Assembly: GCA_001770015.1 (NCBI GenBank)
Contig: MEQB01000031.1
Coordinates: 1-64,000, forward strand
Length of the DNA: 64,000 bases
Source: Bdellovibrionales bacterium RIFOXYC1_FULL_37_79
GTDB lineage: Bacteria > Bdellovibrionota > Bacteriovoracia > Bacteriovoracales > Bacteriovoracaceae
Direction: 5' to 3'
Shown in pieces: positions 25,360 through 34,757 of the stretch. The number at the start of each line of letters is the position of its first letter. The stretch's first letter is position 1. Under the pieces are notes generated by a model, which saw only the letters and a program-made list of their open reading frames with translations, had not been told where the DNA came from and made no database searches. The position numbers and the translations under genes are program-made.

Positions 25360-26253
25360 ATGAAAGAAGAAATAGAAAAAATTATTGCTTTAAACAAAGA
25401 AGGAACAATTTCAGATGCGCAAATGGCAGAACTAATTTGTGCTTTAAAAGAAACTAAAAATGAGAAAGAGGAAACTAAACTCGATAATAAGGAGAGTGAT
25501 TGGGAAAAATCTTTAGAGGAATCGGTAGAGGGTTATGTAAGCGGTGCTATTAATCAAGGATTGAAAGGAGTAATGGGAGCTTTAAACAGTGCTAAAGGTA
25601 AATTTATTCATAATGATGACAACGATAATGAAATAAATTTATCAAGATTTAATCAGCCTACTGGCGAGAATTTTACTTTTGAAGATAATAAAATTCATGT
25701 GTCCAATGTTTCTGATTTGAAATTTTATAACTCTGGTTTTAGTGATAATTCCGTGCAAGCCTCAAATCTTAAAAATTTCGATCTGAAAAATAGTCAGATA
25801 ACGGATATCTCGTTTAATGGCAGTTCGATGGAAGAATGGACGCTGATTGATTCAAGTATTTCAGACGTAAAAGTAAACGGAAGTAAAATATCCAAACTGT
25901 GTCTTGAGCAAAAATCAAATATCAGTGACACGAAATTTAATGGATGCAGTATCAAACAATTGACTTTGCTTAACGGTTCAAATTTACAAGATATGTCGTT
26001 TAATGCCGGATCAATTACAAATACTAAATTTGATCGATCTGAATTTTGTGATGTCTCGATTAACCTTGCACAATTTAGCGACACCTCCTTTGAAAATGTT
26101 CATTTTTCCGATTGCAAGATGGATCACTTTCAAATAAGTGGCTGTACGCTTAAAAATGTTGATTTGTCCGATTTTAAAATTAATCACCTGAAACTGATTG
26201 ATAAAACCATCGATGGTAACGAAGAATTTAAAAAACATTTGAATAATCAGTGA
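25360..26253 (+). CDS. SHOCT-like plus beta-helical repeat protein
   Basis: A 297-residue protein. The N-terminus (about 1-30: IIALNKEGTISDAQMAELI) resembles a short SHOCT-type helix pair. Residues about 95-285 are made of degenerate pentapeptide-like repeats such as FNGSSMEEWTL, FNGCSIKQLTL, FNAGSITNTKF, FENVHFSDCKM, predicting a right-handed beta-helix. It has no signal peptide. It is translated directly after the DUF2089 gene. The product may bind or sequester its partner or act as a scaffold; this is inference. Confidence 0.8.
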   Translation: MKEEIEKIIALNKEGTISDAQMAELICALKETKNEKEETKLDNKESDWEKSLEESVEGYVSGAINQGLKGVMGALNSAKGKFIHNDDNDNEINLSRFNQPTGENFTFEDNKIHVSNVSDLKFYNSGFSDNSVQASNLKNFDLKNSQITDISFNGSSMEEWTLIDSSISDVKVNGSKISKLCLEQKSNISDTKFNGCSIKQLTLLNGSNLQDMSFNAGSITNTKFDRSEFCDVSINLAQFSDTSFENVHFSDCKMDHFQISGCTLKNVDLSDFKINHLKLIDKTIDGNEEFKKHLNNQ

Positions 26254-28328: not shown

Positions 28329-29747
28329 TTAACCTTTCTTAATTTTTATCCCCTCTTTCCTATCTTCAATTAAATATCCAAGCTCTTTGATCTTTAACCG
28401 AATACTATCTGCTCGTACGAAATTTTTTTCACTTTTGGCCTTGGACCTCTCTAAAACAAGCTGACGCACTTCTTCTGGAACCTTCTCTATCTTCTCTATT
28501 TTTTTTAAACTCTCCACAAGATCAAGTCCCAGGAGAGCATCAAATACATCAAGCGATGCAATTTTGGTTGAGGCATTAACTGAATAATCTTTAAGAAGCG
28601 TAAAAAGATAGGCCAGTGTCTCTGAGGAGTTTAGATCATTGTTGATAATTTTTTTGATTTTACCCCTAATCGCTATCAGCTTTTCATTTTCAACTTGCAA
28701 ATCTTTTGATTCGGCCATTAATCTCCTTAATTTTGCAATCAACCCAATATAACCCTGTTGGGCAGCATCAAGTGACTCATAAGAAAAATTTAATTTACTC
28801 CGGTAATGGGAACCCAGACAATAAAAACGATAGGCCAAGGGTAAATAACCTTTTGATTTAAGCAGCGAAAGAGTCAGAAATTCCCCTGTTGACTTACTCA
28901 TCTTTCCGGATTGATCGATTAAAAACTCTGAGTGCATCCAATAACGGACCCACCTTTTTTTTGTCAGAGGTTCAACCTGCGCAATCTCATTGCTATGATG
29001 TATTTTAATATGATCAACTCCTCCGCAATGAATATCAATTTCTTCACCCAAGTGTTTCAAAGCCATCGCACTACACTCAATATGCCACCCGGGAAATCCC
29101 ATTCCCCAAGGAGAAGGCCATTGCATAAGACGTTTTTTGTTTTGAGGTGACACTTTCCAGAGAGCAAAGTCACTAATATTCTTTTTACCTTCAGTAAAAT
29201 TTATTCGTGCCCCGGCTTTTAACTCTTCTAAATTTTGTCCTCCAAGCCTGTTGTAATCTTTAAATTTGAAAGTATCGTAATAGATGCCATCATTTTCAAT
29301 TTTATAAGCAAGTCCTGCCTCTTCTAACCGCTTCACAAGTTCAATCTGTTCATCAATATGATCTGTGGCCTTACTCCAAAGCGTAGGCTTAGTAATATTG
29401 AGTTCTTGGAAATCATTCATAAAGGCATCGGTGTACTTTTGGGCAACCTCCCAAATTGTTGCTCCTTCTTTGGCTGCGCTTAACTCCATCTTATCATCAC
29501 CAGAGTCTTCATCGCTCGTGAGATGACCAACATCCGTTATATTGATCACATGTTTGATTTTAAAACCATTAAATTTTAGGGCCCGCACCAAAAGGTCTTG
29601 ATTGATGTACGTTCGCAAATTACCGATATGTGCGTAATTATAAACAGTGGGGCCACACGCATATATTTTGACCAGTTGATTACTTAGGGGAATAAAAGGA
29701 ACAATCTTGCGTTCAATGGTATTATAAAGTTCAAGTGTTTCTGACAT
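28329..29747 (-). CDS. cysS: Cysteinyl-tRNA synthetase
   Basis: A 472-residue class I synthetase that charges tRNA-Cys. CGPTVYNYAHIGN (31-43) holds a zinc Cys and the HIGH-type motif; GWHIECSAM supplies a further zinc Cys; HHSNEIAQ is the zinc/active-site stretch; KMSKSTG is the KMSKS loop. The length is normal. It starts 16 bp after aspS on the same strand, so both are read from the aspS promoter and share its leader attenuator. Confidence 0.97.
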   Translation of the reverse strand: MSETLELYNTIERKIVPFIPLSNQLVKIYACGPTVYNYAHIGNLRTYINQDLLVRALKFNGFKIKHVINITDVGHLTSDEDSGDDKMELSAAKEGATIWEVAQKYTDAFMNDFQELNITKPTLWSKATDHIDEQIELVKRLEEAGLAYKIENDGIYYDTFKFKDYNRLGGQNLEELKAGARINFTEGKKNISDFALWKVSPQNKKRLMQWPSPWGMGFPGWHIECSAMALKHLGEEIDIHCGGVDHIKIHHSNEIAQVEPLTKKRWVRYWMHSEFLIDQSGKMSKSTGEFLTLSLLKSKGYLPLAYRFYCLGSHYRSKLNFSYESLDAAQQGYIGLIAKLRRLMAESKDLQVENEKLIAIRGKIKKIINNDLNSSETLAYLFTLLKDYSVNASTKIASLDVFDALLGLDLVESLKKIEKIEKVPEEVRQLVLERSKAKSEKNFVRADSIRLKIKELGYLIEDRKEGIKIKKG

Positions 29748-29763
29748 GCAATCTCCTACAATT

Positions 29764-31035
29764 TTATGGGAACAATCTCGTCACATCTCTTGGAAACATT
29801 GTCGCTTCCTTAATGTTATTAAGGCCAATAATTTTTTGCGTAAAACGTTCAAGACCTAAACCCAAACCGCCATGTGGTGGTAAACCGTATTTATGGGCTT
29901 CAGAATAAAAAGCAAACTCTTCAACGTTCATTTCACGGTGTTTCATTTTTTCTAAAAGTTCCTGGTACTCATGTATACGCTGTCCACCTGTCGTCACCTC
30001 CATCCCTCTAAATAATAAGTCAAAACTTTCCGTTTCTTCTCTATTATTTGGATTTTCCTTCGCATAAAATGGTCTTTTCGCTGTAGGGTAATGAGTGACA
30101 AAAACAAATTCGGAACCAGTTTTCTCCTTAATGAGTTCACATATTTTAATTTCCTCAATAGGCGAAAGGTCAAGCTCTTTTCTTTCATCTATCCCGCACT
30201 CCTTAAAAACCAATTCTTTTGCTTCAGAAAATACTAACATAGGAATTTTATTAATTACCGGCAAAGTTATTTGTAAAAGATCAAGTTCATATGAGCAACG
30301 GGACCCGATTGTCCATATTATTTCTTTTAAAATTTCTTCTTCGGTTTTCATGATTTCATAGAAACTTCTAATCGGTCCCATTTCCATATCCATAGAGGTA
30401 TATTCATTGATGTGACGATTAGTATTATGCTTTTCAGCACGAAAGACCGGGCCTATCTCAAAAACTTTTTGAAATACACCACAACAAAATTCTTTATAAA
30501 ATTGAGGACTTTGAGCAAGATAGGCTTTCGAACCAAAATAATTAAGTTCAAAGATATTTGCGCCACCTTCTGCTCCAGCTTTCACAATCTTAGGAGTTCG
30601 TATCTCCGTAAAGCCATTATTTTGAAGATAAGAACGAAAACCGATAACTATTGCCTCTTGAATTTTAAAGATGGCCTTAATTTTAGGATGTCTCATGGAA
30701 AGGGCACGCATATCAAAAAGGACATTGTTACCAATGTTCAAATCTTTTTTAGTAATATCAAAAGGAAATGATTCTGACGGAGTGGACATCACCTGCAAGG
30801 TTGTCAGTTTAAGCTCTAAATCATTTGAAAAAATCAATTTATCCTTAATCTGAGCTTTTTGAAATATACCTGTAAAAAAAACTGCCGATTGCTCTCTCAC
30901 TTTTTCAGGAAGTTCTCCTTCTAAAATAGCCTGAATGATTTTTCCATCGAGAATGATATGCAAAAATGAAAAGCCTTTCAACTGCTTGATGCGATAGATA
31001 ATTCCTGTCGCACTTATTTTCTCATTCTCTTTCAT
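29764..31035 (-). CDS. aspS: Aspartyl-tRNA synthetase, archaeal/eukaryotic type
   Basis: A 423-residue class II synthetase. An OB-fold anticodon domain (about 1-110) precedes the catalytic core with motif 2 GPVFRAEKHNTNRHINEYTS, the flipping-loop region, SFDLLFRGMEVTTGGQRIHE and motif 3 GLGLGLERF. It lacks the GAD insertion of the roughly 590-residue bacterial enzyme, and these motifs fit archaeal AspRS better than AsnRS. Such enzymes are often non-discriminating (they also charge tRNA-Asn). GGGAGGG lies just before ATG 31035. It is preceded by a terminator and a Cys/Asp-rich leader ORF. Confidence 0.93.
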   Translation of the reverse strand: MKENEKISATGIIYRIKQLKGFSFLHIILDGKIIQAILEGELPEKVREQSAVFFTGIFQKAQIKDKLIFSNDLELKLTTLQVMSTPSESFPFDITKKDLNIGNNVLFDMRALSMRHPKIKAIFKIQEAIVIGFRSYLQNNGFTEIRTPKIVKAGAEGGANIFELNYFGSKAYLAQSPQFYKEFCCGVFQKVFEIGPVFRAEKHNTNRHINEYTSMDMEMGPIRSFYEIMKTEEEILKEIIWTIGSRCSYELDLLQITLPVINKIPMLVFSEAKELVFKECGIDERKELDLSPIEEIKICELIKEKTGSEFVFVTHYPTAKRPFYAKENPNNREETESFDLLFRGMEVTTGGQRIHEYQELLEKMKHREMNVEEFAFYSEAHKYGLPPHGGLGLGLERFTQKIIGLNNIKEATMFPRDVTRLFP

Positions 31036-31052: not shown

Positions 31053-31077
31053 AAAAAAGCCTCGATTATTCGAGGCC
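31053..31077 (-). terminator. Intrinsic terminator directly before aspS (attenuator)
   Basis: On the minus strand GCCTCGA, loop ATAA, TCGAGGC is followed by six U (31058-31053), a canonical intrinsic terminator. It ends only about 17 bp before the aspS start, with the aspS ribosome site in between. A segment UGAGGUC inside the leader ORF (31123-31129) can pair with GGCCUCG (31071-31077), competing with this hairpin. Confidence 0.85.
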
Positions 31078-31104
31078 TTTACTTAGTGATGTTATTTTTT
31101 AATT

Positions 31105-31206
31105 TTATGCACACCCAAGCATGACCTCATTTATAATCGAATCATCGCAATCACAATACTGTGATGTTGGAAAAGAAAAAATAAGTGATGTGCTGAAGTT
31201 CAACAT
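31105..31206 (-). CDS. Cys/Asp-codon leader peptide of the aspS-cysS operon
   Basis: A 33-codon ORF from ATG 31206 to TAA 31105, too short for standard gene calls. Codons 17-23 read YCDCDDS, that is Cys-Asp-Cys-Asp-Asp in a row (31155-31141). The downstream operon encodes exactly AspRS and CysRS. Ribosome stalling there when charged tRNA is short would leave UGAGGUC, about 12 nt further on, free to disrupt the terminator. An in-frame ATG at 31215 is an alternative start. No ribosome site is seen; the predicted transcription start falls at or next to ATG 31206, so translation may be leaderless. Confidence 0.7.
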   Translation of the reverse strand: MLNFSTSLIFSFPTSQYCDCDDSIINEVMLGCA

Positions 31207-31213
31207 ATAAACC

Positions 31214-31242
31214 ATTATTTCACTAAAAATTGAAATAATCAA
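31214..31242 (-). promoter_or_regulatory. Candidate promoter of the leader-aspS-cysS unit
   Basis: On the minus strand TTGATT (31242-31237) and AATAAT (31219-31214) are separated by 17 bp, close to sigma-70 consensus. Transcription would start about 7 nt downstream, almost on the leader ATG. Confidence 0.5.
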
Positions 31243-31284: not shown

Positions 31285-31764
31285 TTATTGAGTTATTCCT
31301 GGTTCTTTTTTCATTCTATAAAAACCATCTTTTTGTGAAATTATTTTCCAATCATGCTTTTCATAAAATTTTAAAGCATTTAGATTCTTTGAAAAAACAT
31401 TAAGCTCAAAGTGTGAACACTTATATTTCTTCAATAAATCCAGTGCATACTTTTCTAATTTTTTCCCAAGACCTTGTCTGCGAAAAACCGGCAAAAGATA
31501 GATAAAGGTGACAAAGCCAACTGCCGGATAACCTTTTCGAGGAAATACGTCTAAGAAACCAATAATTTTTTGATCCAAAAAAGCAAAGACCGAAAAATCA
31601 GGACTTATTTCTTGCCGCACTTTAATTGCCGTGCGGTAGGCGTCAAACTCCTCATCCTCCAGCTTCATCCCGCCAATCCCCTTAGTATCTGCGAGAAATT
31701 CTCTAACTAAATTTTGCTCATCCTTATTTTCAATATTTATTGGCCTAAAAAGAATACTTTTCAT
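31285..31764 (-). CDS. GNAT-family N-acetyltransferase
   Basis: A 159-residue acetyltransferase. The acetyl-CoA loop is FRRQGLGKKLEKYALDLL (about 101-118), followed by NVFSKNLNALKFYEKHDWK, the usual GNAT C-terminal strand and helix. The substrate is unknown. It ends about 45 bp before the candidate aspS promoter region and is a separate unit upstream of it. The 287-bp gap to copA holds no gene that I credit. Confidence 0.88.
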   Translation of the reverse strand: MKSILFRPINIENKDEQNLVREFLADTKGIGGMKLEDEEFDAYRTAIKVRQEISPDFSVFAFLDQKIIGFLDVFPRKGYPAVGFVTFIYLLPVFRRQGLGKKLEKYALDLLKKYKCSHFELNVFSKNLNALKFYEKHDWKIISQKDGFYRMKKEPGITQ

Positions 31765-34331: not shown

Positions 34332-34757
34332 TCAATTACTTGTTTTTTTCTTGGGCAGTTTGAGTCTTTTAGTCTTGTTTTTAATCAACTCTTTTTTCAG
34401 GATAGATATTATCTGGCCTAGAAAAAGTTCATCATCAGGCAACGGGAGATTGCATTCTGGATGCATATTTTCGCCATCATCGTCATCTTCTTCTTTCTCA
34501 TCTTCATCTTCTTCTTCCAGACCGTTACGTTTATTGGCCATCGAATCACAACCTGATCTTATCAAATCCTCTAAGATGGACAGTTCCTCTGAAATTGTTT
34601 TTAGCAACTGTCCAATACCATAAAACTCATCACTATCAAGACAAATTTCCTTCTGATCTTGCGTAAACAAACTTCCAATTCCCTTTAAACTACCGCTGGC
34701 AATCCAAAGGCGTTCGCATATTTTATCCAGGAGTTTGTTATTATCTAAATGTCCCAA
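34332..34757 (-). CDS. Hypothetical protein with acidic central tract
   Basis: A 141-residue soluble protein. The first 75 residues look helical; a run of Glu/Asp (about residues 80-95, EEEDEDEKEEDDDD) is followed by HPEC and a basic Lys-rich C-terminus. The convergent copA gene ends 58 bp away. It has no recognised domain. The acidic/basic halves suggest a nucleic-acid or protein-binding role, unproven. Confidence 0.6.
   Translation of the reverse strand: MGHLDNNKLLDKICERLWIASGSLKGIGSLFTQDQKEICLDSDEFYGIGQLLKTISEELSILEDLIRSGCDSMANKRNGLEEEDEDEKEEDDDDGENMHPECNLPLPDDELFLGQIISILKKELIKNKTKRLKLPKKKTSN

Follow-up and report, generated by a model that had tools for sequence, protein, structure and literature searches.

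A predicted leader-peptide attenuator with conserved aspartate codons upstream of auxiliary aspartyl- and cysteinyl-tRNA synthetase genes in Bdellovibrionota

The short leader preceding aspS2 in the window (the whole stretch of DNA analysed, 64,000 nucleotides long) is predicted to be a transcription attenuator of the ribosome-mediated type, which responds to the charging of tRNA-Asp and turns on the auxiliary aspS2 gene and, in the window, cysS2 as well, a reading to which a probability of about 0.87 can be assigned. Leader-peptide attenuation of the aspS operon, as put forward in the original prediction, is strongly supported by an Asp codon cluster, a terminator and a co-varying antiterminator in seven leaders.

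Rereading of the sequence placed the leader ORF, its Cys-Asp-Cys-Asp-Asp codons, the terminator and the antiterminator where they had originally been located. The features of the operon are the following:

31214..31242, minus strand: candidate sigma-70-type promoter, TTGATT-17-AATAAT, 9/12 matches
31105..31206, minus strand: leader ORF, 33 codons, peptide MLNFSTSLIFSFPTSQYCDCDDSIINEVMLGCA
31185..31194, minus strand: candidate region 1, AGCACAUCAC, predicted to pair with UGUGCA close to region 2; putative anti-antiterminator, weak in the window
31141..31155, minus strand: control codons Cys-Asp-Cys-Asp-Asp, inside the leader ORF
31111..31130, minus strand: region 2, predicted 5' strand of the antiterminator, within the 3' end of the leader ORF
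31071..31091, minus strand: region 3, predicted 3' strand of the antiterminator, overlapping the 5' arm of the terminator
31053..31080, minus strand: intrinsic terminator, AAAGGCCTCGA-ATAA-TCGAGGCTTTT plus U tract
29764..31035, minus strand: aspS2, archaeal-type AspRS, 423 aa, with a Shine-Dalgarno sequence GGGAGGG at 31046-31040
28329..29747, minus strand: cysS2, second CysRS, 472 aa, 16 nt past aspS2 and with its own Shine-Dalgarno sequence

As read from the sequence, the leader ORF extends from an ATG at 31206-31204 to a TAA at 31107-31105, with alternative in-frame starts at 31215 (ATG) and 31245 (TTG). The terminator, comprising a stem at 31080-31055 and a U tract at 31058-31053, is also detected, and 17 nt were counted between the U tract and the aspS ATG (31035), matching the distance of about 17 bp first proposed. 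The pairing of UGAGGUC (31129-31123) with GGCCUCG (31077-31071), 7 bp with two G-U pairs, was likewise recovered, and is part of a longer predicted antiterminator (31130 to ~31111 against ~31091-31071) whose energy in the window is -19.7 kcal/mol, dinucleotide shuffles averaging -9.5 (p = 0.001). The -35/-10 pair at 31242-31214, a match near chance level in a search where the number of promoter-like sites was not clearly above shuffles, would set the RNA start about at the 31206 ATG, making the leader ORF itself leaderless. Inspection by eye revealed -10-like boxes 6-7 nt 5' of the leader ATG in four relatives (G023, G022, G111 and G091); candidate boxes in five leaders thus put the RNA start at or near the leader ATG, so that translation of this ORF may start without a Shine-Dalgarno sequence.

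Both genes behind the leader are auxiliary, i.e., duplicated synthetases standing beside housekeeping genes. The names aspS and cysS proved correct, with family models above cut-off (NCBIfam NF003483, 477.7 bits against 353, for the aspS2 product; TIGR00435, 422 bits against 340, for that of cysS2), but the operon consists of two second copies, because G000 (the 4.36-Mb assembly to which the window belongs, and whose close relatives are Bdellovibrio or Bdellovibrionales metagenome genomes) also carries a bacterial AspRS of ~590 aa at C36 and another CysRS at C40, the window pair lying on C31 and an AsnRS at C9. The aspS2 product falls below the cut-off of TIGR00458 (aspS_nondisc; 332 bits against 368), and its nearest solved chain is 1n9w, the AspRS2 of Thermus. 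This auxiliary status of both enzymes makes spare-enzyme induction, rather than housekeeping control, the likely biology. No comparable leader was seen at the native aspS, at gltX-cysS or at the gene before asnS in G000, nor, by eye, at ten other candidate synthetase loci of this genome, and a general attenuation of synthetase genes in G000 was rejected for the inspected housekeeping genes, where no leaders were seen.

Among 129 genomes of the Bdellovibrionota family, only 12 encode such an AspS2, and its gene is preceded by the leader in seven of them (the window, G023, G022, G111, G091, G059 and G103), always before the same AspRS gene; the remaining five have none, indicating that the enzyme does not need the leader. 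The enzymes behind the six other leaders are 53-82% identical to the window AspRS2, and the leader-bearing proteins cluster together in the tree (88/88), with leaderless relatives next to them. A common design, an ORF of 25-35 codons, unites seven widely divergent sequences, the six peptides other than that of the window being MLRYSTSPLSDCDDSDDSNLELGDLPRCA in G023, MKMVKSQLHSPVLVKFIDRNDDDCCDYSWGVCLS in G022, MEMINYQTQIHSLAPFIDRNDDDSLVYSRGSVWTR in G111, MLSLLRSTFSAPIFDQDDLDCDYYFASGAC in G091, MSISQTTPHSKVFKSDDDRSSLFRGRLN in G059 and MKTSRRPHSTFKFDDDSWDYLMAFV in G103. At least three Asp within five codons are found in 7/7 leaders, as opposed to 1.0% of control ORFs (1764 ATG ORFs of 22-40 codons), and the Asp total is 30 where 5.3 are expected from the short-ORF background (p = 2e-14). 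The distance from the leader stop to the U tract is ~46-54 nt, and a terminator hairpin with a U-rich tract stands just before aspS in all seven, the U tract of G023 being imperfect. In G059, a divergent tRNA-Asp (GUC) gene (L066:8130-8206) lies immediately upstream of the aspS2 leader.

This distribution also bears on the simplest alternative, namely that the terminator merely ends the transcript of the upstream GNAT acetyltransferase gene (31764-31285), the ORF and its codons arising by chance and aspS2 having its own promoter. The GNAT gene does point toward aspS2, with nothing else between, but the 17 nt from the U tract to the aspS ATG leave no space for a promoter past the terminator, and the six other genomes also have the leader, pairing and terminator in front of aspS2, with different genes upstream. 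A simple end-of-GNAT terminator is therefore extremely improbable and was rejected.

The pairings were compared across the seven leaders, taking region 2 as the final 24 nt of the ORF, the stop codon and 6 nt more, and region 3 as starting 6 nt past the stop codon and reaching the top of the 5' arm of the terminator. The summed duplex energy of regions 2 and 3 from the same species was the lowest of the 5040 assignments among the seven leaders, in a set of tests whose independence is limited by species kinship and shared base composition; against shuffles, which preserve composition, six of the seven leaders were individually significant (p < 0.02), G091 giving p = 0.19. When region 2 was slid upstream, own pairing ranked 1/5040 at -27 and -18 nt and 6/5040 at -36 nt and was unremarkable farther upstream, confining the effect to the ORF end. 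These comparisons argue that a predicted antiterminator excluding the terminator is kept by compensatory change in the seven leaders. Own pairing of regions 1 and 2 ranked 1/5040 over the set as well, but only four leaders show the signal individually, the window giving p = 0.68 against shuffles.

Beyond the anatomy, conservation, co-varying pairings and auxiliary status of the enzymes, which are observed, the stalling, termination, readthrough and purpose can be inferred as follows. A ribosome would begin the leader ORF nearly at the 5' end of the RNA and, with Asp-tRNA scarce, would stall at the Asp cluster, leaving the downstream region 2 free to pair with region 3; the resulting helix would prevent the terminator from forming, and aspS2-cysS2 would be transcribed, providing a spare enzyme upon failure of the housekeeping AspRS, e.g., under an AspRS inhibitor. 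In a stall model with a 15-nt downstream footprint, a ribosome on any Asp codon of the window leader frees region 2 fully or nearly so, while with a ribosome at the leader stop the terminator alone remains. The minimum-energy structure of the stalled state in the window contains both the terminator and the distal helix of the antiterminator; since the two can coexist in the computed equilibrium, antitermination would have to be kinetic, with an advantage assumed for the helix made earlier. Such kinetic antitermination is usual for attenuators of this sort.

Cognate leader ORFs are predicted to belong to other auxiliary synthetases of the family as well. In 10/10 genomes found to carry a short auxiliary ThrRS (394 aa long in G023, with 46-74% identity in the others), its gene has a Thr leader ORF (nine by scan and L139 by eye; loci L134-L143, with L126:1810-1863 and L127:4026-4079, both on the plus strand, as examples), as opposed to none among 20 housekeeping thrS genes in the same scan. 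In these leaders the Thr codons lie just 5' of a Pro-stop end, and the stop codon sits in the loop of an ACCCC-(U/G)UA-GGGGU hairpin; a second hairpin is present without a U tract directly 3', so that the mechanism may differ. Two serS genes each are found in G023, G090 and G103, and the ORF upstream of the auxiliary one ends in VSSFSSLSSC-stop in G090 and in VLSLSSK-stop in G103; these Ser ORFs, in L078 and L079, lie ~80-180 nt upstream of serS and are followed by similar CCAUCC...GGAU...UUGGG hairpins. In G090 (L127:2763-5375), the auxiliary serS is followed by the auxiliary thrS, with the Thr leader between them. Judged by their leaders, these genes seem to form part of a broader group of spare synthetases, apparently not described before, that are induced by failure to charge their own tRNA.

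The presence of Thr and Ser leaders on auxiliary ThrRS and SerRS genes speaks in favor of the Asp cluster being a sensor. Inducible resistance leaders of the ermC type respond via translation slowdown or an arrest peptide, and the attenuator could in principle work in the same way, without sensing Asp-tRNA; this is very unlikely, given that the Asp cluster is the sole conserved feature among otherwise divergent peptides and that Thr and Ser take its place in the leaders of the auxiliary ThrRS and SerRS. Another explanation is that the leader serves asparagine supply, a non-discriminating AspRS2 making Asp-tRNA(Asn) for GatCAB as in Thermus. AspRS2 is indeed closest to the non-discriminating Thermus enzyme, and a GatB homolog is present in G000 and G022; however, Asn is not enriched in the leaders (7, with 10 expected), a search for GatB in the other five genomes with a leader found none, and G000 has an AsnRS, which together make this explanation unlikely. 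Asp is the conserved sensor predicted from the seven leaders.

A more delicate question concerns cysteine, the original prediction having described a dual Asp/Cys leader in which shortage of either Asp-tRNA or Cys-tRNA induces both synthetases. The Asp part holds in 7/7 leaders, whereas the Cys part is found in four, three of them without an adjacent cysS, and a dual sensor is best regarded as a tentative possibility. The upstream regions of aspS in relatives, where conserved Cys/Asp codons had been anticipated, similarly retain the short ORF, Asp codons, terminator and compensatory antiterminator in seven leaders, but Cys codons in only 4/7. Consistent with dual sensing, two Cys codons lie within the control cluster of the window, where cysS2 is the second gene and a Cys stall would free region 2 too, and a Cys at most two residues from an Asp is found in 4/7 leaders versus 5.7% of control ORFs (p = 3e-4), or in three of five lineages (p ~0.002). 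On the other hand, Cys clusters are present in the leaders of G023, G022 and G091, yet no such cysS was found in these genomes or beside their aspS2, and Cys codons were accordingly rejected as an indicator of an operon containing cysS, whose presence they do not track. Furthermore, three leaders lack Cys, Cys is modestly enriched overall (10, with 4.6 expected; p = 0.02 with the short-ORF background, a fairer choice that replaced the whole-protein background and its p of 4e-4), and no Cys leader was seen at the cysS2 of G019 and G105, which with G000 are the only family genomes in which a cysS2 of this type was found. The aspS2 leader is also found without cysS in the operon: the second gene is an auxiliary serS in G023 and no synthetase in the other genomes examined, and with cysS2 adjacent to aspS2 in the window only, dual Asp/Cys sensing is unproven. 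The Ser codons of the G023 leader (aspS2-serS2) were rejected as proof of a match between leader codons and the second gene, because Ser is raised in all seven leaders. The Cys codons may nonetheless be true control codons in the window. More doubtful still is the broadest reading, that this Bdellovibrionota family possesses a shifting, sporadic complement of auxiliary Asp, Ser, Thr and Cys synthetases, most of them under cognate leaders and induced only when the housekeeping enzyme is blocked (e.g., by antibiotics or toxins from prey or competitors that poison synthetases), with the window leader reading Asp and Cys for a two-synthetase operon.

Leader attenuators on synthetase genes are known or predicted elsewhere, and what is new here is the unusual target and possibly a new regulon. 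Leader-peptide attenuation of pheST is textbook knowledge, and TrpRS1 of Streptomyces coelicolor is under ribosome-mediated attenuation. The Phe_leader of pheA/pheST (RF01859) follows the same logic and has the same size, but was rejected as an identity for the window leader, which matches it below threshold (25.8 bits against a gathering score of 55) and has Asp instead of Phe codons. Rfam gave no T-box match to the leader at gathering or at E<=10 and only sub-threshold matches; the T-box riboswitch likewise induces synthetases on uncharged tRNA, whereas the window leader would sense it via a translated ORF. By architecture (a cognate-codon leader ORF, an antiterminator and a terminator before a synthetase gene), it resembles the candidate attenuators before trpS2 of S. 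avermitilis and leuS of Streptomyces (PMC1262725) and that of the auxiliary TrpRS1 of S. coelicolor, a second, inducible copy. TrpRS1 is indolmycin-resistant and has devoted expression (PMC9437257). The window leader differs from these in sensing Asp, in its occurrence in Bdellovibrionota, in its archaeal-type AspRS and in the CysRS or SerRS behind it in two genomes. A second synthetase made when charging fails would be an analog of the indolmycin-resistant TrpRS1. Duplicated synthetase genes under cognate leader peptides are also known from the hisS*/hisZ paralogues of bacilli, preceded by histidine leader peptides (PMC2965389), which differ in amino acid, phylum and enzyme. The AspRS2 of Thermus (1n9w/3kfu) is the closest solved relative; the window enzyme differs in sharing its genome with a bacterial AspRS and an AsnRS and in lying behind an Asp leader. 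The literature searched, with incomplete coverage, contained no aspartate-responsive leader peptide and no leader-peptide attenuator in Bdellovibrio-like bacteria; a Shewanella screen (PMC2659441) predicted an RNA element before aspS, with no Asp leader peptide mentioned in the accessible part of that article, and in a review (PMC9437257) no auxiliary role in charging is listed for second copies of AspRS or CysRS.

If the attenuator reading is true, such leaders flag which spare synthetases are stress-inducible, indicate unknown inhibitors of AspRS, SerRS and ThrRS in the surroundings of these bacteria, and provide ready-made biosensors of uncharged tRNA-Asp and tRNA-Thr. Resistance to microcin C can be of the acetylation type, and RimI-like GNAT genes lie beside aspS2 in the window (31285-31764, upstream) and in G022 (L065:3645-4046, downstream); they would fit such a resistance, but this is only a lead, as GNAT genes are common. 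AspRS is poisoned by microcin C-like compounds (PMC9239234). Elsewhere in the window, a 141-aa ORF (34332-34757) with a long acidic run (EEEDEDEKEEDDDD) has no NCBIfam or Pfam match, and a 297-aa ORF (25360-26253) appears by eye to be pentapeptide-repeat-like in its second half.
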